A DNA stretch of 64,000 nt. It comes from Tissierella sp. Yu-01. Lineage in GTDB: Bacteria > Bacillota > Clostridia > Tissierellales > Tissierellaceae. The notes below the pieces were generated by a model that saw nothing but the letters and a program-made list of their open reading frames with translations, did not search any database and had not been told where the DNA came from. How positions within the stretch are numbered: position 1 is the first letter of the stretch; every line of letters starts with the position of its first letter. Positions 52,478 through 63,991 of this stretch are shown here, in pieces. The translations under genes were made by a program, and so were the position numbers. Where the stretch lies: NCBI RefSeq assembly GCF_029537395.1, contig NZ_CP120677.1, forward strand, positions 992,001 to 1,056,000. Reading direction: 5' to 3'.

Positions 52478-53503
52478 TTAATATTTACCAAAATGACAAT
52501 CTGGGAATGTACATACATGACATTTCAAGCATTGTCCACCATAACCCATACGTGTTATATCCCTTCTAACTATTTTCTCACCAGCTATTACTCTTGGTAA
52601 TAGCAGATCAAAGGCTGTTGTAGCACTGAACATTACACAACCAGGAAGTCCAAATACTGGTATTCCATCTAAGTATGCAAATAATAGCATAGCACCAGGT
52701 AATATTGGAGTTCCATAAGTAACTATTTCTGCTCCAGTAGCTTTTATCGCTCCAGGTGTTTTATCATCTGGGTCAACCGACATACCACCGGTAACAACTA
52801 TAAGTTCAGCGCCCATTTCCTTAGCTTTTAATACTTCTTTCCTTATCACTTCTAATTCATCAGGAACTATTGTCCTATGCAATATTTCTGTACTAAAGTT
52901 TAATAACTTTTTCTCAACTACAGGACCAAACTTGTCCTCAATTCTACCTTTATAAACCTCGCTACCTGTGACAATAATTACAGCCTTTAAAGATTTAAAT
53001 GGTTTTACCTCAAAAATAGGTCCCCTGTCACCTATGATTTTCTTAACTTCCTCTATCTTTTCCTTTTTTATTGTCAATGGAATAACCCTGCAACCGCCAA
53101 TTAGTCCATCTTCCTCTATGGTTCGATTACCATGGATAGTGGCAATACATATATCCTGTATGTCATTTACATCATCTAATATATCTCTATTAATTTTTAG
53201 TAATCCCCTATAATCAGGTTGTATATTTATCTTACCTTCACGAGGTGGGTTAGTAAAATGAACTCCCCTTCCACAAATAAGTTTTCCAAGCTCTAATGCA
53301 GCTTCATCCTCATGGTATTCATCATAATTAAGCTCAAATATGTATATATGCTCTTTTCCAATTCTTAGAAGTCTCTCTACATCTTCTTTCTTGATAACAT
53401 GTCCCTTTTTGAAGGCTACGCCCTTGAATTCACCAGGAACAATTTCAGTAATATCATGTCCAAGTACCATTCCTACTGCATTTTCTGTATTTACAACCTT
53501 CAT
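52478..53503 (-). CDS. Molybdopterin-binding protein (MoeA/MogA-like)
   Basis: A 341-residue protein. The N-terminal 160 residues include VGMVLGHDITEIVPGEFKG, as in MoeA-related proteins; residues about 170-320 hold a MoCF (MogA/MoeA) domain with IIVTGSEVYKGRIEDKFGP, VTGGMSVDPDDKTPGAI and GLPGCVMF. The C-terminus has a cysteine-rich end (CLKCHVCTFPDCHFGK) that may bind metal or Fe-S. It likely works in molybdenum or tungsten cofactor handling for the AOR enzymes nearby. GGAGG precedes the ATG. The tatA-like gene upstream is 28 bases away. Confidence 0.88.
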   Translation of the reverse strand: MKVVNTENAVGMVLGHDITEIVPGEFKGVAFKKGHVIKKEDVERLLRIGKEHIYIFELNYDEYHEDEAALELGKLICGRGVHFTNPPREGKINIQPDYRGLLKINRDILDDVNDIQDICIATIHGNRTIEEDGLIGGCRVIPLTIKKEKIEEVKKIIGDRGPIFEVKPFKSLKAVIIVTGSEVYKGRIEDKFGPVVEKKLLNFSTEILHRTIVPDELEVIRKEVLKAKEMGAELIVVTGGMSVDPDDKTPGAIKATGAEIVTYGTPILPGAMLLFAYLDGIPVFGLPGCVMFSATTAFDLLLPRVIAGEKIVRRDITRMGYGGQCLKCHVCTFPDCHFGKY

Positions 53504-55148: not shown

Positions 55149-57254
55149 CTAAGGGAGCAAGTTTAATGAGTCTAACTCATCAGCTATATCCTTTAATCCT
55201 AATCTTTCTAGTGTTTCTCTAGTTGGTGCTCCTGTTTTTTCATCCCAACCATATTCCTTATACAACATAGTCAATGCAAGTTGCATATCATCTCTATCAA
55301 GTTTAACTGTTCCTTCTGTAAATGGCTTCATATCAGGATCTACATCAAATACCCATTCAGGAATAGTATCATGTTCATTTCTCATATCAATTGTATTCAT
55401 ATCTCTAACTGTTAATGCTCTATGAAGATTTGTTATTCTTTCAGCTTGTAAATCCAACTCTTCCTCAGACATTTCTATACCTGTTGCTAAGGAATAGAAT
55501 TTAGCTTCAAGTGCTAAGTCCCCTCTATAGTTTCTGCTCTTTGAAGGTGATACGGTCATAGGCCATACCCAGTTACATAAAGTAATTGAGTCATGAAGCA
55601 TGTTTCTATCAATTGACCATTTCGCGAATTTTGCTTTATATTCATTCATTGGAGTATAGTTCTTAGGCGCATCTAATGCATCAGGGGATCCCCAAACTTC
55701 ACCAGCAATTTCCTTTAATAACTCTATAGGAAGTCCAGCACCTATGAAATTCATATGGGAGTGGTTATTACAATCTCTGTTGAAAAATGTATTTATTAAT
55801 GCTCCAACCTGAGCTCCAGCTTCATTACTATGATGTTTAGGATATGCCATCTTTGACCATACATTATTTCCAGATCCAGTCCAATAATCTTTTCCAAGAT
55901 TCCATCTTTTATCTAATTCATAAGGTCCATCTAATAGATGTGAGAATTCTCCATCTGCTATTAAGTTGTTGTAGAACTCAAGCATCCAGCCTGGATCTCC
56001 ACTTTCCATTAGCGACCAGTCTATACTATCCCATTCTTCTTTAGGTAGTACTTCCTTTAATTTACCTGAATTATATGCATATCTAAAGTCTCTGTGTAAT
56101 TGTCCATAGTTACTCCATACACCATAATCATCAGCAAGTCTTGAACCTAAACATTTAGTTATAAGAGCAACTTCTCCTTTGTTTTCTCCATCTGAATATC
56201 CATTTAACATTGCAGTACCTGGTGTACTAAAGTTGATACATGTACTTGTAGCATATGGAGTTAAACCATATTTCTCAAGTTCAGGTACATGTAAATTAGA
56301 TTGACATCTAATTGGACATGAATAGCAACCGCCCATTTTTATGGTTCTTTCTTCAGCAACTTCACCTAAGTCAAATATTGCCTTTTGAGTTCTTAGTCCT
56401 ACTTTATTTAAATCTCCTGGAGGACATTCTCCTGTTTCTACTGGAGGGTTTGCAGCACCCCAGAAAAGTGCTGTTTGTGCTGTCCAACGACTTCCCGCAC
56501 TATGATATTCTGCCCATGTTTGAGGTGTACTTGGTACAACGTGGTTGTTATTAGCACCTATGATTTCACCTAACATATATTTATTTAAATCTAACCAGTC
56601 TCTATTTTTCCCATCAGCTATATGTACTGCTCCAGTTCCCTTAACACCAATAGCTTTAAGATTTTTCGAACCTAGAACACCTCCGTGACCACCAGCAGAG
56701 TGATTTACTGTGTTTACAATAGATGCTAAATTCTTCATCTTTTCTCCAGCAGGTCCAATAGCAGCTATACAAGCTTCTTTGCCCATTATCTTATTTATTT
56801 CATTTGTTGTATCTATAACCCCTTTACCCCATAGGCCACTTGCATCTTCAATAGAAACTTTATCATCTTCAATCTTTATCCATACTGGAGATTTAGATGC
56901 CCCTTCAATAATAATTGCATCATATCCAGCAAATTTCATCCAAGGACCAAAATTACCACCCATATGACTATCAGTTACTGCATGATAAGGATTCGCAGGT
57001 GCAAGAGATGTAATATTTGTTCTACCACTACAAGGTGCTGTTGTTCCTGTTAATGGTCCAACTGCAATAACTACCTTGTTTGCTTCATCAAATGCCTTAG
57101 TTCCCTGTGGAACTTCATCAAATATTACTTTATATCCAAGTCCTGCTCCACCGATTAAGTCTTTATTATATTTCATTGAATCTTCAATTTTAATATCGCC
57201 AGTAGATAAGTTAACTCTTAATAACTTACCAGTCCAGCCAGTTATATTAGCCAT
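55149..57254 (-). CDS. YdhV-like oxidoreductase of the aldehyde ferredoxin oxidoreductase family
   Basis: A 701-residue AOR-family enzyme, the same length as Escherichia coli YdhV and longer than classical AOR. N-terminal cofactor domain: GWTGKLLRVNLSTGDI, GPLTGTTAPCSGRTN, VTDSHMGGNFGPWMKFAGYD, GSKNLKAIGVKG. The [4Fe-4S] cysteines are in GGCYSCPIRCQ and CNWVWPMTVSP. Stretches such as GANNNHVVPSTPQ and FNRDCNNHSH are typical of YdhV. The family binds a tungsten or molybdenum bis-pyranopterin cofactor; the substrate of YdhV-type enzymes is not established. GGGAGG precedes the ATG. The YdhY-like gene is upstream. Confidence 0.9.
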   Translation of the reverse strand: MANITGWTGKLLRVNLSTGDIKIEDSMKYNKDLIGGAGLGYKVIFDEVPQGTKAFDEANKVVIAVGPLTGTTAPCSGRTNITSLAPANPYHAVTDSHMGGNFGPWMKFAGYDAIIIEGASKSPVWIKIEDDKVSIEDASGLWGKGVIDTTNEINKIMGKEACIAAIGPAGEKMKNLASIVNTVNHSAGGHGGVLGSKNLKAIGVKGTGAVHIADGKNRDWLDLNKYMLGEIIGANNNHVVPSTPQTWAEYHSAGSRWTAQTALFWGAANPPVETGECPPGDLNKVGLRTQKAIFDLGEVAEERTIKMGGCYSCPIRCQSNLHVPELEKYGLTPYATSTCINFSTPGTAMLNGYSDGENKGEVALITKCLGSRLADDYGVWSNYGQLHRDFRYAYNSGKLKEVLPKEEWDSIDWSLMESGDPGWMLEFYNNLIADGEFSHLLDGPYELDKRWNLGKDYWTGSGNNVWSKMAYPKHHSNEAGAQVGALINTFFNRDCNNHSHMNFIGAGLPIELLKEIAGEVWGSPDALDAPKNYTPMNEYKAKFAKWSIDRNMLHDSITLCNWVWPMTVSPSKSRNYRGDLALEAKFYSLATGIEMSEEELDLQAERITNLHRALTVRDMNTIDMRNEHDTIPEWVFDVDPDMKPFTEGTVKLDRDDMQLALTMLYKEYGWDEKTGAPTRETLERLGLKDIADELDSLNLLP

Positions 57255-57316
57255 ATATAATTCCTCCCATCTTAAATACTAAAGGTATAACAATCGTATA
57301 CATGTAAATTAAAACT

Positions 57317-57997
57317 TTATGATAATCTATAACCTCTTCTTCTAAGCATAGCTTCTAGCTTTTCCCAAGGTATTAAACTAAGTGAACCTGTAATACAGTT
57401 CTCAGCACATTCACCACATAAAATACATTTTGTGGATTTACCAGTTTCAGGGTCAATGGTAGGCATATTCCATGGGCAAGCTTGAACACAAGCTCCACAT
57501 CCTACACATTTATTTTCATCAACAGTCCATGCACCTGTTGCTTCATTCTGACTTATAGCATCTGCTGGACACGCTGCTGCACATTTAGCATCCTCACATT
57601 GACGACATGTTTCTGGTGTCATTAAAAAATTTCCAAAATAACCATTTTCATTTCTATAATTATCAGTCATTTCTGACCCATAGTTGAAGTTTCTAGCGAT
57701 CTTAACTCTAGATACATATGGATGAACCTTTCCATCATTAGCTACAGTACATACCATTTCACATCTTTGACATCCAGTACATCTATTTGGCTGTGATACT
57801 ATTAACCCTTTAGGTATAACAAACGCCGCTGCTCCAGTAGGTACTTCAGTACTCGTTGGCTCCTCTTTAGTACATCCAATTAAGTTTAATACGGAAGCAG
57901 TTACTGTAATACCAGCTAATCCTTTTCCACTCATTTTAAGGAATTCACGTCTAGTTCTTACTTTTTCAATAAATTCTTCAATTTCTTTTTCAAACAT
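57317..57997 (-). CDS. YdhY-like Tat-exported ferredoxin lipoprotein
   Basis: A 226-residue protein with a twin-arginine signal TRREFLKMSGKGLAG near residue 16 and a lipobox LIGC near 40, so it is exported folded and lipid-anchored outside. Four [4Fe-4S] sites follow: CTGCQRCEMVC, CRQCEDAKCAAACP, CVGCGACVQACPW and CILCGECAENC, as in DmsB/HybA-type electron carriers and in E. coli YdhY, with which it shares the SGKGLAG start. It would move electrons between a membrane or outside partner and the AOR module. GGAGGG precedes the ATG; a TatA gene lies upstream. Confidence 0.9.
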   Translation of the reverse strand: MFEKEIEEFIEKVRTRREFLKMSGKGLAGITVTASVLNLIGCTKEEPTSTEVPTGAAAFVIPKGLIVSQPNRCTGCQRCEMVCTVANDGKVHPYVSRVKIARNFNYGSEMTDNYRNENGYFGNFLMTPETCRQCEDAKCAAACPADAISQNEATGAWTVDENKCVGCGACVQACPWNMPTIDPETGKSTKCILCGECAENCITGSLSLIPWEKLEAMLRRRGYRLS

Positions 57998-58084
57998 ATT
58001 TACTCTCCCTCCTAATCTACATTGTAAAGTTTGATATTTAACTAACTTTATTAAATAAGGTTATAAATTGCATTAAAGTAAAAC

Positions 58085-58285
58085 TTAAGCATCTAAGCTT
58101 TCTTCTTCTTTTAGAACTGACGTTTTATCTTCTAATGGTTCTTCACTAACCTTATTTGCATGATCTTTAAATTGTTTGATTGTTTGTCCCATAGCTTTTC
58201 CTATTTCAGGTAGTTTCTTCGGACCAAATACCACCAATGCTATTCCTAATATTAATACTAACTCCATCGGACCTAATCTTGCCAT
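58085..58285 (-). CDS. tatA: Second TatA/TatE-type translocase subunit
   Basis: A 66-residue TatA: MARLGPMELVLILGIALVVF, then GPKKLPEIGKAMGQTIKQFK and an acidic tail. The ATG at 58285 is eight bases after GGAGAG. It lies inside the YdhV-type cluster just before the Tat-exported ferredoxin, so it may be dedicated to export of that protein. It differs from the TatA at 53532 mainly in the tail. Confidence 0.95.
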   Translation of the reverse strand: MARLGPMELVLILGIALVVFGPKKLPEIGKAMGQTIKQFKDHANKVSEEPLEDKTSVLKEEESLDA

Positions 58286-58301
58286 TATGTACACTCTCCT
58301 T

Positions 58302-58901
58302 TTATGGATTTTGCTCTGCTTCTACCTCTACCCACTCTGCTAGGGATCTAGCATAGGCATTCTTCATGTATTTATCTGAATACAAATAAAGTGCCTGGTT
58401 AGATGCTCTTGTTTCCTTTATGTCCATATATTCTTCCTTCTTCTTAAGTTCATCATAAACTTGTATAAATTCATCTCTTGAAAGCTTAAATGGAGCTTTT
58501 GAAAATAACTTGATATCAGTTGGCCTTGGATAAATCCTAGACTCCTCTCTTACTGTTTCAGCTATCATCTTAAAAAAGTCTTTTTCTTCAACTAAAATCA
58601 TCAATTTAGCATAATTTAAGGTTATATAATTCACAGAAAACAAATAAATTGTTTCTGCACCTTTTTTCATGATTATATCTGAAAATTCTTCTCTTCCCTT
58701 AAGTTCTTCCAATAAAGGTAGCACTTCATCAACTTCTAGAGAAAAAGGTTCATCTATGAAATCCTCTGCTTTAGTCAGATTTCCGCTCATAGAATTATCT
58801 CTAATGAATTCCCCAATAAGAGTAACTTTATCTTCTAGTTCAACTTCAACATCTACTACTTCTTGCACAGCATCTTCTTCTACTGAATCGAAATCACTCA
58901 T
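58302..58901 (-). CDS. YdhW-like protein of unknown function in the AOR cluster
   Basis: About 199 residues, acidic, soluble. After a Glu/Val-rich start (EEDAVQEVVDVEVELEDK) it holds two similar halves: EPFSLEVDEVLPLLEELKGREEFSD...LFSVNYITLNYAK and APFKLSRDEFIQVYDELKKKEEYMD...LYSDKYMKNAYAR. This indicates an internal duplication. It occupies the position of the unknown gene ydhW in the ydhYVWXUT cluster of E. coli; homology is inferred from position only. It is the first gene of the operon. The start is the ATG at 58901, six bases after GGAGAG. Confidence 0.55.
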   Translation of the reverse strand: MSDFDSVEEDAVQEVVDVEVELEDKVTLIGEFIRDNSMSGNLTKAEDFIDEPFSLEVDEVLPLLEELKGREEFSDIIMKKGAETIYLFSVNYITLNYAKLMILVEEKDFFKMIAETVREESRIYPRPTDIKLFSKAPFKLSRDEFIQVYDELKKKEEYMDIKETRASNQALYLYSDKYMKNAYARSLAEWVEVEAEQNP

Positions 58902-59020
58902 ATGCATCTCTCCTTAAATATTAAATGATTCCCACTTGTTAAATGTATCACAAAGAGACAAGCTAAGTCAATATTTTTGTTAATTTTTTAATAATTAAAG
59001 CTAACTCTAATTCCAATATA

Positions 59021-59048: not shown

Positions 59049-59103
59049 ATATATTTAAATATACTATGTTCTATACATATAAAATAAGAAATGAGTGAGA
59101 TTT

Positions 59104-60153
59104 ATGTTTGAAAAATTATATGGTGAATTATTAGAAAAGCTAAATGAAGACAGTGAAGTAGCGCTTTTAACTTCACTATCCACGAAGGATCTTACTATTA
59201 ATAAAAAGCAAGTATTATCAAAAACTGAGTTAGACGCGAGCATTGATATTGAGCTTAAAAATAATATATTAGAGTCTTTTGACACTGGTATACCAACTAC
59301 ATATAATACAGATGAAGAATCAATTTTAATTGAACCATTTTTCCCAAAACCAAGACTAATAGTATTTGGAGGTGGCCATATTGCTAAGCCATTGACTGAA
59401 TTTAGCCGAAAAGTTGGTTTTTCTGTTGTTGTAATAGATGACAGACCATTCTTTGCTAATTCTGGAAGATTTCCTGATGCGGATGAGGTTATTTGTGAAG
59501 ATTTTAATAAAGTCTTTGACAAAATTAGATTAAAATCTTCTGACTTTGTTGTAATAGTAACAAGAGGACATAAATATGATGGTGTTTGTTTGAGAAATAC
59601 TTTACGATATACGACTGCTTATACTGGGATGATAGGTTCTAAACGTAGAGTAAGAGCAATGATGGAAGAACTATCAAAAGAAGGTTATGATAAAGAAAAA
59701 TTAGATAAGGTATGTTCCCCTATAGGTCTTGATATAGGAGCTGTAACACCAGAAGAAATTGCAATTGCAGTAATTGCTCAAGTGATCAGCTATAGAAGAG
59801 CTTCTAACTCCAAGTTATCAAGAAGTAAATTCAACTGGCCTGAATTTGATATGGATGTGATGAAAGAGGCAGCATCAAAATCTGAGATTCCAAGAGCCTT
59901 AATTACTATTATTGGATCAAAAGGGTCTGTTCCTAGAAAAGCTGGAGCTAAAATGATAGTATGGCTTGATGGCAGATTAATAGGAACTATTGGTGGAGGA
60001 TGTAGCGAAGCAAATATCCTATCTTTAGCACGTAATGTTATACAAAAAAAGGGTTATTCAATTGAACATGTTGATATGACTGGAGATGTAGCTGAGGATG
60101 AAGGTATGGTTTGCGGTGGAGTCATGGATGTTCTCATAGAATCTATCGATTAA
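59104..60153 (+). CDS. XdhC family molybdenum cofactor insertion protein
   Basis: About 349 residues. After a short N-terminal segment there is a Rossmann domain at about 85-225 (PRLIVFGGGHIAKPLTEFSR, VIDDRPFFANSGRFPDAD, GMIGSKRRV, GLDIGAVTPEEIAIAVIAQV), then an XdhC/CoxI domain at about 245-345 (IIGSKGSVPRKAGAKMIVW, GTIGGGCSEANI). XdhC proteins bind and sulfurate the molybdenum cofactor and insert it into hydroxylases. The order of the two domains is reversed from the classical XdhC. ATG at 59104 chosen after GAGTGAG. It is divergent from the YdhV-type operon. Confidence 0.92.
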   Translation: MFEKLYGELLEKLNEDSEVALLTSLSTKDLTINKKQVLSKTELDASIDIELKNNILESFDTGIPTTYNTDEESILIEPFFPKPRLIVFGGGHIAKPLTEFSRKVGFSVVVIDDRPFFANSGRFPDADEVICEDFNKVFDKIRLKSSDFVVIVTRGHKYDGVCLRNTLRYTTAYTGMIGSKRRVRAMMEELSKEGYDKEKLDKVCSPIGLDIGAVTPEEIAIAVIAQVISYRRASNSKLSRSKFNWPEFDMDVMKEAASKSEIPRALITIIGSKGSVPRKAGAKMIVWLDGRLIGTIGGGCSEANILSLARNVIQKKGYSIEHVDMTGDVAEDEGMVCGGVMDVLIESID

Positions 60154-60162
60154 AATAATGAG

Positions 60163-60208
60163 TTAAGGCGAAAAGGATGAACCGACCCCTTTTCGCCTTT
60201 CTTTTTTA
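60163..60208. terminator. Terminator between xdhC and hxlR
   Basis: AAGGCGAAAAGG (60165-60176) pairs with CCTTTTCGCCTT (60188-60199) followed by a T run; it serves the convergent genes. Confidence 0.92.
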
Positions 60209-60526
60209 GTTCCATTTCTCTGCCCATTTTTGGATTTCTTCCATGGATTTGTGTAAATCCTTTCCCTTTTCAGTTAACTCATACTCAATTCTGACAGGAG
60301 TTTCTGGATATACATGTCTAATGATTATTCCATGTTGCTCAAGTTCTTTAAATCTCTCTGTAAGCATTCGTGCACTTAAGTTTGGTATAGCCATTTCTAT
60401 ATCTGAAAACCTCTTTTGACCACTAAGAAGGGTTTGGATGATAAGACCTGTCCATCTTTTTCCTAGTAATTCAAACGCTGATTCAAACTTTGGACATAAA
60501 TGGAATTTATCAATATTCCCCATCAT
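60206..60526 (-). CDS. HxlR family transcriptional regulator
   Basis: About 106 residues: the conserved N-terminal cysteine in FHLCPKFESAFELLGKRW, then ILLSGQKRFSDIEMAIPNLSARMLTERFKELEQHGII and a wing ending VRIEYELTEKG. HxlR/MarR-like winged-helix proteins often sense reactive carbonyls or redox state through that cysteine. Start: one of two adjacent ATGs at 60526/60523 after AGGTGG. It sits between xdhC and the AOR-SHMT operon and could control either by responding to aldehydes; this is inference. Confidence 0.9.
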   Translation of the reverse strand: MMGNIDKFHLCPKFESAFELLGKRWTGLIIQTLLSGQKRFSDIEMAIPNLSARMLTERFKELEQHGIIIRHVYPETPVRIEYELTEKGKDLHKSMEEIQKWAEKWN

Positions 60527-60543
60527 TAACACCACCTACTATT

Positions 60544-60572: not shown

Positions 60573-60593
60573 GTAAATTTTTAATTATTATTT

Positions 60594-60626
60594 TAAAAAG
60601 CTACTAATCAAAATCAGTAGCTCTTT
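60594..60626 (-). terminator. Terminator of the AOR-moaD-SHMT operon
   Basis: Minus strand: AGCTACT and AGTAGCT form a stem followed by a run of T; it lies just past the stop codon at 60637. Confidence 0.82.
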
Positions 60627-60636
60627 AAAAGAGGGT

Positions 60637-61860
60637 TTAGAATGAAAAATCTATTCCAGTAAAATTTCTAGCATAATTTTCTACATCTTTTCCTACTTCT
60701 TCAATTGAATCCTTATCTATAAGTAATCGTTTAAAAAATATTGCTATAGTCTCCATATCATTTTCTTTGAATCCTCTTCTTGTTATTTCAGGTGTACCTA
60801 TTCTAACTTCAGGTGCTCCGCCGGAAAAGTCGTCAGAAACAAGTATATTAGCCTTCTCAAGATATTTTGCTGGTGCAGTATCTATAATATCACCCAAATT
60901 AAGAAGCAAAAGATGTGATTCAGTAAAGCCTCTATTTTTACCGATTACATCAAATCCATATTTATCTAATGCTTTTGCCAAGGCTTTAGAGTTCTTCACT
61001 ATCTGTTGACCATACTCATATCCAAATTCTTTCATCTCTAAAATTGAAGCTGCTAAGGCTGGTAATCTATTAAGATGGTGACTTGTCACTAATGATGGAG
61101 ATAATGTATTACCAACTTTATTGATTAATTCTTTATTATTGGATACTACAAATCCACCTTGAGGTCCAGGAAATGATTTATGAGTACTCCCAAACATTAT
61201 GTCTGCGCCCTCTTCTAGAGGGTTCTTAAACACTCCTGAAGCAATAAGACCAGTTACATGAGCTGCATCATATGCAATGTGAAAACCAATTTCATCAGCC
61301 AATGGCCTTAATTCCCTAACAGGCTCCTGGAACAATGTGCCTGAACCTCCAAATATAACAAGCTTTGGATTTAATTCTTTTACTTGAATTTTTAAGGCTT
61401 CAACATCAACTTCTCTATCTTCTGTAAACTTCATATATTTAACTCTTATAGTCTCATCAAATTGTCTGACTTGGCACATTGGACCAACTAAACCATGACC
61501 CCAGTCTTTAAGACTCACTTCTATAACTAGATCCCCTGGCTCGAGTAAGGCCAGAACAACTGACATACCTGCCATATGTCCCCCAATAGGTCTTAAATCA
61601 GCATATTTTGCCTTGAAAACTTCTTTTATCAATTCTTGTGTTTCCATCTCAATTTCATGTATATATTTGTTTCCCGTATATTCCCTATCAGATGGATCTA
61701 ATGTTGAGTAACATCCATATCTATTTCCTAAATCACAACTTAAATAACTGCGTACCTTCTCGCTGGAAAAGTTTTCAGAAGCAATTAAATTTAGGCAACC
61801 TTCTCTGTATACTGAATGTTTCTTTATCATATTATCTATATCTCTAGTTGACTTAAACAT
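60637..61860 (-). CDS. Serine hydroxymethyltransferase-like PLP enzyme (divergent)
   Basis: A 407-residue fold-type I PLP enzyme. It shows LNLIASENFSSEKVRSYL, RPIGGHMAGMSVVLAL, YDAAHVTGLIASG, the PLP lysine Lys228 in FGSTHKSFPGPQGG and RIGTPEITRRGF, all as in SHMT. But the stretch that in GlyA reads NKYAEGYPG and holds the catalytic Glu is here NRYGCYSTLDPSD, so the general acid/base for tetrahydrofolate-linked transfer is missing. An aldolase reaction (for example on threonine or a 3-hydroxyamino acid, releasing an aldehyde) is a sensible alternative. It lies 20 bases after moaD in one operon with an AOR. Confidence 0.8.
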   Translation of the reverse strand: MFKSTRDIDNMIKKHSVYREGCLNLIASENFSSEKVRSYLSCDLGNRYGCYSTLDPSDREYTGNKYIHEIEMETQELIKEVFKAKYADLRPIGGHMAGMSVVLALLEPGDLVIEVSLKDWGHGLVGPMCQVRQFDETIRVKYMKFTEDREVDVEALKIQVKELNPKLVIFGGSGTLFQEPVRELRPLADEIGFHIAYDAAHVTGLIASGVFKNPLEEGADIMFGSTHKSFPGPQGGFVVSNNKELINKVGNTLSPSLVTSHHLNRLPALAASILEMKEFGYEYGQQIVKNSKALAKALDKYGFDVIGKNRGFTESHLLLLNLGDIIDTAPAKYLEKANILVSDDFSGGAPEVRIGTPEITRRGFKENDMETIAIFFKRLLIDKDSIEEVGKDVENYARNFTGIDFSF

Positions 61861-61880
61861 ATACGTCCCCCCTAAATTAA

Positions 61881-62078
61881 TTAGCCACCACCTAAAGGTT
61901 TTATAATCTTTACAGTATCTTTGTCCTTTAATAAGTAATCATCATATTGAGACATCAATAATTGTTTACCATTTACGAATACTGCAACAGATTTATTGTA
62001 ACTTAAATGTTCTAAAAGATTTAATATTTTAAAATCATGTGGAATTGTGATGGCTTTGTTATTTACTGTTATTTCCAC
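61881..62078 (-). CDS. MoaD/ThiS-like sulfur carrier protein
   Basis: A 65-residue beta-grasp protein: MEITVNNKAITIPHDF at the start, VAVFVNGKQLL in the middle and a C-terminal KDKDTVKIIKPLGGG. The terminal Gly-Gly is the thiocarboxylation site of MoaD and ThiS. Start: the GTG at 62078, five bases after AGGAGGTA; a longer reading would include this site. Its position right after an AOR gene suggests a MoaD role in making tungstopterin or molybdopterin for that enzyme, though ThiS cannot be excluded. Confidence 0.88.
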   Translation of the reverse strand: MEITVNNKAITIPHDFKILNLLEHLSYNKSVAVFVNGKQLLMSQYDDYLLKDKDTVKIIKPLGGG

Positions 62079-62089
62079 ATATCTACCTC

Positions 62090-63991
62090 CTATTGATCCA
62101 ATAACCATTGTAATGATAATTTTTTCATTATAACCCCTGTAGGATTTCCTGTTTCCTTATCCCACCCAGCGAATTCGTAGTACACGTCTTTAGCTTTATC
62201 ATGAGCTTTTCTATCCAATACTACTCCATCTGTTGGACCTCCTTTAAGAGGTTCAAATATTCTTTCTGGAAGTTTGTCATCATCTTTTGTAAAGCCTTCC
62301 CTAGAGTTGAAGTATCTCATCATATTAAGCCTTCTTTCACCGACCTGCATTAATTCAAATAAAGAAGTATCCCATCCAATACCATATTTACATAAGTCCA
62401 CCATTTCATCTGGACCATATAATTCCCAAGACGGTCCCCAAACAAATTGACATAAACACAAAGTATCTAAAATAGAGAAGTATTTATGAGTATCTAATGC
62501 AAATCTTACCTTATCATCATCCATAGTAAAGTTATCTTCATAACCCTTGTGAATACCAATCTTAGCCAATCTAATTCTTTCCCTGCTATCAGGTGGCATA
62601 ACTAGAAATGGATCATGCTCACTAGATTGGTGATCTGCACCAAATGGGTTAACAGCGTAAATAAGTCCCACTGCAGGCTTATATTGAGGCATATGTGCAG
62701 GTAGCTCCTGTTTTTTAACACTTATGCTCAATGGCAAAGCTTCCTTCCCAATTTTCTCTGCAGCTCGATAACTACCCTCAGCTAAAAGTTCCCCTATTCC
62801 TTCTTCCCTCTTAGCTATTTTACTAATTATTACTGGTAAGGCTTCTGCATTACCAAAATTTAAATCAATACCATCGCACTCTTCTTTACTAAGCAATCCT
62901 TTTTCATAACATTCCATAGCAAATGCAATTGTAGCACCGCAAGATATTGTATCCAAACCGTGCATGTTACAAAGCTGGTTTGCTAATGATACATATTCAA
63001 GACTAGTAACACCACAGTATGATCCAAAGGTACCTACTGTTTCATATTCGGGTCCACCATATAAAGGATCAACCATACCAGGAATTTCAACAACTCTTTT
63101 ACATTTTACTGCACAGGCAAAACATGTATCCCTTTCTTTTAGAATCGTGTCATACATGGTGGTTCCAGTTAATTTTTCAGCTCCTTCAGGGAAATGTCCA
63201 GATGTCCAGTTTCTTGTTACAAGGAAGCCTTCTTCACTGAATCCCTGTAAATCTCCATCAGTGCCATATTTACCAAGTCCTGCAACGGATTCATTTTCTT
63301 CTAGTCTTTGTGTTACACTCTTGGCTAGTTCCATAAAATTCTCTTTATATACAGGTTTCATAGCCTTTCCTTTTGCAACAACAACTGCTTTAAGATTCTT
63401 AGACCCCATTACAGCACCCATACCATTTCTTCCATTTGCCCTGTTACACATATTTATAATGCAGGCATATTTAACTAAATTCTCTCCACCAGGTCCTATC
63501 TGAGCAATTTCTACATCATCTCTATTTAACTCTTCCCTAATGGCATCTTCTGCTTCACCTGTTACCTTACCCCAAAGATTTTCTGCACTCTTTAATTCAA
63601 CATTATCACCATTAATAAATAAATATACTGGTTTCTCTGCTTTTCCATTAAATACAATAGCATCATATCCATTGCTCTTTAAATGAACAGGGAAAAAACC
63701 ACCGGCTTGACTATCTCCAATAGTCCCAGTTAGCGGACTTTTAGCTGTAACATTCATTCTGCTTATACCGCTTATTGGAAGTCCTGTTAAAGCTGATACT
63801 GAAAAAACCAATGTGTTTTCAGGGGACAATGGATCAATTCCTGTTTTAATATCCTGCATAGCCAAATAAAGACCTAATGCTGAACCCCCTGGATATAGTC
63901 TATAAATATCCCCAGGTAATATTTCAGTATTTACATCTCCTTTTGTTAGATCTACTCTTAAGATTTTTGCATCAGGAAATTGATTATACAT
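62090..63991 (-). CDS. Aldehyde ferredoxin oxidoreductase
   Basis: A 633-residue AOR. N-terminal domain with AKILRVDLTKGDV, PGGSALGLYLA, VSALTGLPISGISRMN and SQAGGFFPVHLKSNGYDA; cofactor and cluster domain with GSKNLKAVVVAKG, the [4Fe-4S] cysteines CFACAVKCKRVV and the later CLCQFVWGPSW; a typical AEGSYRAAEKIG stretch sits near 410. AOR oxidises aldehydes to acids and reduces ferredoxin, using a tungsten bis-pyranopterin. The start is nine bases from the window edge, so its ribosome binding site cannot be judged. It is followed by moaD (11 bases) and the SHMT-like gene. Confidence 0.93.
   Translation of the reverse strand: MYNQFPDAKILRVDLTKGDVNTEILPGDIYRLYPGGSALGLYLAMQDIKTGIDPLSPENTLVFSVSALTGLPISGISRMNVTAKSPLTGTIGDSQAGGFFPVHLKSNGYDAIVFNGKAEKPVYLFINGDNVELKSAENLWGKVTGEAEDAIREELNRDDVEIAQIGPGGENLVKYACIINMCNRANGRNGMGAVMGSKNLKAVVVAKGKAMKPVYKENFMELAKSVTQRLEENESVAGLGKYGTDGDLQGFSEEGFLVTRNWTSGHFPEGAEKLTGTTMYDTILKERDTCFACAVKCKRVVEIPGMVDPLYGGPEYETVGTFGSYCGVTSLEYVSLANQLCNMHGLDTISCGATIAFAMECYEKGLLSKEECDGIDLNFGNAEALPVIISKIAKREEGIGELLAEGSYRAAEKIGKEALPLSISVKKQELPAHMPQYKPAVGLIYAVNPFGADHQSSEHDPFLVMPPDSRERIRLAKIGIHKGYEDNFTMDDDKVRFALDTHKYFSILDTLCLCQFVWGPSWELYGPDEMVDLCKYGIGWDTSLFELMQVGERRLNMMRYFNSREGFTKDDDKLPERIFEPLKGGPTDGVVLDRKAHDKAKDVYYEFAGWDKETGNPTGVIMKKLSLQWLLDQ

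Follow-up and report, generated by a model that had tools for sequence, protein, structure and literature searches.

What does a homologue of serine hydroxymethyltransferase (SHMT) do at the end of an operon that also encodes an aldehyde:ferredoxin oxidoreductase (AOR)? The question is raised by a locus near the right end of a 64,000-nucleotide stretch of Tissierella sp. Yu-01 (contig NZ_CP120677.1, positions 992,001 to 1,056,000; hereafter the window), in which genes for an AOR (633 residues, 62090-63991), a ThiS/MoaD-like sulfur carrier ending in GGG (WorX, 61881-62078) and an SHMT-like pyridoxal phosphate (PLP) enzyme (407 residues, 60637-61860) follow one another on the minus strand. An earlier note on this DNA, made from the sequence alone, had proposed that the SHMT homologue is a folate-independent aldolase which hands an aldehyde to AOR. 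Our analysis indicates that this idea is probably right and that the three genes form the tail of a nine-gene operon which, as we consider fairly probable, serves the anaerobic use of the salt-stress compound 5-hydroxyectoine, splitting it to two glycines by means of the SHMT-like enzyme and AOR.

The SHMT-like protein retains the machinery for PLP chemistry: the PLP lysine, Lys228 of the THK motif, is invariant, and the PLP-stacking His, Ser173, Asp198, His201 and Arg353 are present, with roles that we presume from general knowledge of SHMTs. By contrast, the folate elements are lost. The position of the GlyA motif YAEG, which holds the catalytic Glu, is occupied by NRYGCYSTLDPSD, and in every full-length orthologue the motif is replaced by YGCY...P..REY, that is, by YGCY and a three-residue insertion; apart from the archaeal sister group, nearly all of the more distant relatives have YAEG or YSEG. 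Likewise, the folate-binding NKN..P (Asn347-type) loop carries an eight-residue deletion and reads VSDDFSG instead. The AlphaFold model displays the SHMT fold (mean per-residue confidence, pLDDT, 89), with the lowest confidence at the shortened folate loop and 4uqv as the closest structure (TM-score of about 0.9). The argument of the earlier note that the lost Glu speaks against normal folate chemistry, while Lys228 is retained, is thus borne out and extends to the folate loop. In the phylogenetic tree, the SHMT-like proteins stand far from GlyA in a 17-member Bacillota clade (support 100/99), the sister group of which is archaeal. A folate-dependent SHMT was rejected on the loss of these two sequence elements, YAEG and loop, and the idea that an ordinary SHMT stands beside AOR by accident is highly improbable: SHMT is the best Pfam match (PF00464, 174 bits), but the score to the NCBIfam SHMT model (304 bits) is under the cut-off of 335, both folate elements are missing clade-wide, and a canonical GlyA reaching 588 bits to the SHMT family is encoded elsewhere in the genome.

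SHMT-like genes of this kind also occur in archaea. A Bathyarchaeota locus (L038:4025-7584) has an SHMT-like gene that is 40% identical, contains a three-residue insert and is divergent from an AOR gene, in a genome with no DoeA. A further archaeal SHMT-like family, in Asgard archaea and Thermoplasmata (L040-L047), also has neither the YAEG motif nor the folate loop.

The 3 genes in the window are co-directional and tightly packed. The full worX open reading frame spans 61881-62108, its best start being the GTG at 62078 behind AATAGGAGGTAGATAT (AGGAGG); with the start placed there, the AOR-worX gap is 11 bases and the worX-SHMT gap 20 bases, in agreement with the earlier note. A single intrinsic terminator on the minus strand (60591-60630) closes the unit, as had been claimed: the hairpin that follows the stop codon of the SHMT-like gene has a folding energy of −19.2 kcal/mol (z −7.4, with none of 200 shuffles as good) and a T-rich tail. 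A simple terminator pattern scan did not list this hairpin, and a promoter scan of the sequence returned no more sites than were found in shuffles. The earlier proposal had been made to depend on the three genes being neighbours elsewhere too, and our survey found the AOR-worX-SHMT order in 9 other genomes, including those of Sedimentibacter hydroxybenzoicus, Gudongella, Schnuerera, Clostridium sp. Cult1 and two Acidaminobacter, so that it is not due to chance; in 2 more loci, AOR and SHMT-like genes occur together with no worX detected.

Gene order and terminator thus uphold the three-gene operon, but the unit is only the end of a longer one that runs out of the window. Six further genes lie past the right edge on the same strand, and the full order (locus L013 of the same genome) is GntR, DoeA-like, DctQ, DctM, M20, DctP, AOR, worX, SHMT-like, with gaps mostly below 65 bases and one of 88 bases between GntR and DoeA. 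In most of the other genomes, too, the first gene of the operon is GntR. By contrast, the HxlR regulator (60206-60535), which had been suggested to sense the aldehyde, lies past the terminator, shows no conservation and was ruled out as a part of the unit.

The upstream genes suggest an ectoine-type substrate. The closest NCBIfam model to the M24-family hydrolase is ectoine hydrolase DoeA (505 bits, cut-off 613), and in the PDB its match to DoeA (6twk, E = 2.4e-116) is followed by the next non-DoeA chain only at 8e-27. DctP, of the tripartite ATP-independent periplasmic (TRAP) transporter, best matches the unassigned chain 4pfi and 2vpn, 3gyy and 3fxb (216-236 bits, versus 135 bits for the sialic-acid protein SiaP); we take 3fxb to be UehA, and 2vpn and 3gyy to be TeaA. 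Compared with the ligand residues of TeaA/UehA, DctP retains the carboxylate-binding Arg and Asn but has lost the aromatic contacts, and its specificity was therefore not called. The M20 protein is an amidohydrolase closer to CpsA (396 bits) than to DoeB2 (264 bits, cut-off 550). Given this gene content, with the DoeA-like hydrolase, the deacylase and the TeaA/UehA-like importer, threonine and similar 3-hydroxyamino acids in general, as suggested in the earlier note, are not supported as the substrate. A general aldolase for threonine or other 3-hydroxyamino acids, unrelated to ectoines and passing an aldehyde such as acetaldehyde to AOR, could draw on the folate-free cleavage of allo-threonine and phenylserine by SHMTs (PMC3291962, PMC6294363) and on the many aldehydes accepted by the AOR class (PMC13328260), but it leaves the conserved DoeA, M20 and TRAP genes and their co-occurrence with the SHMT-like gene unexplained, and we regard it as very unlikely.

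The association with DoeA holds beyond the locus itself. In most relatives, the cluster also contains the GntR, DoeA, TRAP and M20 genes, although their order is sometimes changed. In a sample of 150 genomes of the order, the SHMT-like gene is present in 10 and DoeA in 12, all 10 being among the 12 (Fisher test, 5.6e-14; by genus, 1.2e-9; both values are optimistic, as the genomes are related); in two of these genomes, DoeA is on another contig or far from the SHMT-like gene, yet present. Among 391 genomes sampled from the class, 3 have the SHMT-like gene, 4 have DoeA and 2 have both. When the samples and the named genomes are taken together, DoeA accompanies the SHMT-like gene in 16 of 18 Bacillota genomes. 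The tree of the SHMT-like gene crosses family boundaries, with the Tissierella gene grouping with that of Sedimentibacter (100/99) and apart from a genome of its own family, which suggests that the operon has spread by transfer.

The nature of the intermediate is indicated by a gene replacement. In one operon (L017; GntR-DoeA-DctQ-DctM-M20-DctP-ALDH-SHMT), an aldehyde dehydrogenase (ALDH) gene occupies exactly the AOR-worX slot, and no AOR was matched in that genome at E 1e-60; Schnuerera has AOR and, nearby, an ALDH with 82% identity. That the same slot can hold either of two unrelated enzymes of aldehyde oxidation points to an aldehyde as a product of the operon. Together with the loss of the folate elements, the retained PLP elements and the conserved gene order, this swap supports the transfer of an aldehyde from a folate-independent aldolase to AOR, as proposed in the earlier note.

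By its domains, residues and gene context, AOR itself is of the class I tungsten oxidoreductase (WOR; WorL) type. It contains the Pfam domains AFOR_N and AFOR_C, its best PDB match is the Pyrococcus furiosus AOR 1aor, and it retains the cysteines for the Fe-S cluster (a CxxCxxxC motif plus one Cys further on) as well as the Glu and His aligned to Glu313 and His448 of 1aor. No genes for small or bifurcating subunits accompany it, and worX adjoins it, as in class I WorL; the product of worX scores 45.6 bits to TIGR01683 (cut-off 37.45), and WorX is the name given to the ThiS-like protein beside class I WORs (PMC13328260). The AOR class oxidises a broad range of aldehydes, and only 5 of 92 WOR clades have a known role (PMC13328260). 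Orthologues within the same operon are 69-86% identical. At L138:8005-10621 (genome G063), an AOR of the same subfamily adjoins phosphotransferase system genes and a class II aldolase of the fuculose-phosphate type, which represents another aldolase-AOR pairing. The window also holds a second WOR, of the class V type (55149-58907), with ydhV (1143.6 bits, cut-off 868), ydhY targeted to twin-arginine translocation (Tat), tatA and ydhW in one run; it belongs to a clade without known activity. Between both WOR operons, on the plus strand, lies a gene for an XdhC-family AOR maturation factor (59095-60153; 298 of 350 bits), which, along with a MoCF_biosynth gene (52478-53503) and a ThiF/MoeB-like gene past the window (L013:12463-13473), may provide a local supply of tungsten/molybdenum cofactor.

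From the gene content we infer the substrate, the individual reactions and whether deacylation precedes cleavage, as follows. The TeaA/UehA-like transporter would import 5-hydroxyectoine, and the DoeA-like hydrolase would open the ring to N-acetyl-3-hydroxy-2,4-diaminobutyrate, from which the M20 enzyme would remove the acetyl group. 5-Hydroxyectoine has the (4S,5S) configuration, so that the resulting 3-hydroxy-2,4-diaminobutyrate (hydroxy-DABA) would be 2S,3S, as in L-allo-threonine, of which it is an analogue. The SHMT-like enzyme would cleave it by a folate-free retro-aldol reaction to glycine and aminoacetaldehyde, and AOR, matured with WorX, would oxidise the latter to a second glycine with reduction of ferredoxin. 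The predicted net conversion of hydroxyectoine is C6H10N2O3 + 3 H2O -> C2H4O2 + 2 C2H5NO2 + 2[H], that is, acetate, two glycines and two reducing equivalents, and the glycine would be passed to glycine reductase. Retro-aldol cleavage would be the most direct use of hydroxy-DABA, and the stereochemistry fits the allo-threonine preference of SHMT: without folate, the Escherichia coli enzyme has a kcat/KM of 20 for allo-threonine and 0.1 for threonine, a 200-fold difference (PMC3291962). In known systems, EutD/EutE open 5-hydroxyectoine to its acetylated form, hydroxy-ADABA, and possibly deacetylate it to hydroxy-DABA, the fate of which is uncertain, EutABC being involved in Ruegeria (PMC8739950).

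The same substrate could be processed in another order, with N-gamma-acetyl-3-hydroxy-2,4-diaminobutyrate from the hydrolase being cleaved directly by the SHMT-like enzyme to glycine and N-acetylaminoacetaldehyde, which AOR would oxidise to N-acetylglycine, and M20 acting last to release acetate and glycine. The M20 protein resembles DoeB2 less than it does CpsA and general N-acyl amino acid hydrolases, and N-acetylaminoacetaldehyde would be chemically tamer than free aminoacetaldehyde, both of which count for late deacetylation. The gamma isomer is also among the possible DoeA products (PMC5924519). Nevertheless, we consider this order unlikely, given that characterised EutD/DoeA yields mainly the alpha-acetyl isomer (PMC5924519, PMC8739950), in which the alpha-amino group is blocked and no PLP aldimine can form. 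More doubtful still is classical ectoine breakdown, in which the SHMT-like enzyme would act as a diaminobutyrate transaminase and AOR would convert the resulting aspartate semialdehyde to aspartate. In known pathways, Atf/DoeD does act as a PLP transaminase and is followed by the semialdehyde dehydrogenase Ssd/DoeC (PMC13188858, PMC8739950), but by sequence and fold the protein is an SHMT and not an aminotransferase, it retains the SHMT arrangement of Ser, His and carboxylate-binding Arg for C-alpha retro-aldol chemistry, and transamination in the SHMT family is a side reaction (PMC3291962).

Several observations weigh against cleavage of hydroxyectoine to glycine by this operon. The DoeA-like proteins fall short of the curated DoeA cut-off and the M20 protein fits CpsA better than DoeB2, so that the substrate is not proven; DctP has lost the ligand tryptophan region of TeaA; AOR paralogues with 64-66% identity are found in other, unrelated contexts, one of them next to an aldolase of the fuculose-phosphate type; kinship among the sampled genomes inflates the significance of the co-occurrence; and two genomes with the SHMT-like gene have no DoeA (L028 and L039, the latter with an SHMT fragment). 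Moreover, genes of the glycine/sarcosine/betaine reductase type are present in all 22 bacterial genomes tested but also in comparison genomes that do not carry the SHMT-like gene, which makes their co-occurrence uninformative and the link to glycine reductase weak. In favour of the proposed route, a gene for sarcosine reductase component B is close to the operon locus in one relative (L033).

DoeA also occurs in other settings. A second swap also speaks for the hydroxyectoine reading: in genome G407, the DoeA operon has no SHMT-like gene but a gene for a hydroxyectoine dehydratase resembling EutB (357-392 bits, under the cut-off). Most of the DoeAs linked to an SHMT-like gene branch apart, in the DoeA tree, from those adjoining a PRK07475-family gene, a possible EutA, the exceptions being Halanaerobium and the genome of locus L027. 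A second type of DoeA-TRAP-M20 cluster, with PRK07475-family, glutamate dehydrogenase-like and PanB-like genes, was observed at L121, L124, L125 and L136, and both cluster types are present in one genome (G121). In the Tissierella operon itself, inspection revealed no EutE-type gene and no EnuR. EutB had no match at E 1e-30 in the Tissierella genome and none over cut-off in any genome with the SHMT-like gene; EutA, EutC, Atf and Ssd were not seen in the operon, no genome-wide search having been made for them.

Putative ectoine clusters in Clostridia have been reported from a search that took EutD, EutE and EutB as its basis, and the Gram-positive clusters described there differ from the present one (PMC13188858). 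The reactions of EutABC on hydroxy-DABA are uncertain even in aerobes (PMC8739950). The hydroxyectoine-to-glycine route appears to be undescribed so far: we found no description of it, or of anaerobic ectoine fermentation, in the open-licence literature, where absence is not proof. Open-licence titles and abstracts held nothing relevant on an SHMT-AOR-MoaD link, AOR with threonine aldolase, hydroxyectoine with aldolase and glycine, aminoacetaldehyde with ectoine, or ectoine with glycine reductase. We regard as reasonably likely a new anaerobic route for 5-hydroxyectoine in which a folate-free descendant of SHMT performs the retro-aldol step, AOR or ALDH acts on aminoacetaldehyde, two glycines and acetate are formed, EutABC is bypassed and glycine reductase is fed in Sedimentibacter, Schnuerera, Acidaminobacter and relatives. 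If so, it would constitute a complete pathway that can be tested in cultured species, provide a defined substrate for one of the many WOR clades still without a role and a function for a folate-free SHMT family readily mistaken for GlyA in annotation, and link osmolyte turnover in anaerobic habitats to glycine-reductase metabolism.

The operon and some of its components resemble known systems and depart from them. The SHMT-like enzyme shares the fold, PLP lysine, PLP-stacking His and carboxylate Arg with GlyA, especially Methanocaldococcus jannaschii SHMT (4uqv/4bhd), but differs in the replaced YAEG motif, the deleted folate loop and its separate clade. With the SHMT-derived L-threonine transaldolases (7k34, fluorothreonine transaldolase), it shares the SHMT fold and presumably folate-free chemistry on beta-hydroxyamino acids, but it is far below their family cut-off (211 of 650 bits) and its context is catabolic rather than biosynthetic. 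AOR has the single WorL subunit, adjoining ThiS-like WorX, catalytic Glu/His and Fe-S cysteines of class I WORs (PMC13328260); here, it is tied through the SHMT-like putative aldolase to an apparent osmolyte-catabolic operon, a context absent from the main text of that paper, which does not mention SHMT. Finally, like the clusters for ectoine and 5-hydroxyectoine (eut of Ruegeria pomeroyi, doe of Halomonas and the putative Gram-positive clusters of PMC13188858), the operon combines a deacylase, a PLP enzyme and an enzyme that oxidises aldehydes with a hydrolase probably of the DoeA/EutD type and a TRAP transporter probably of the ectoine type. In place of EutABC, Atf, Ssd and EnuR, however, it has the SHMT-like enzyme and a tungsten-type AOR (or ALDH), its deacylase is M20 rather than the usual EutE, and its predicted end product is glycine, not aspartate.

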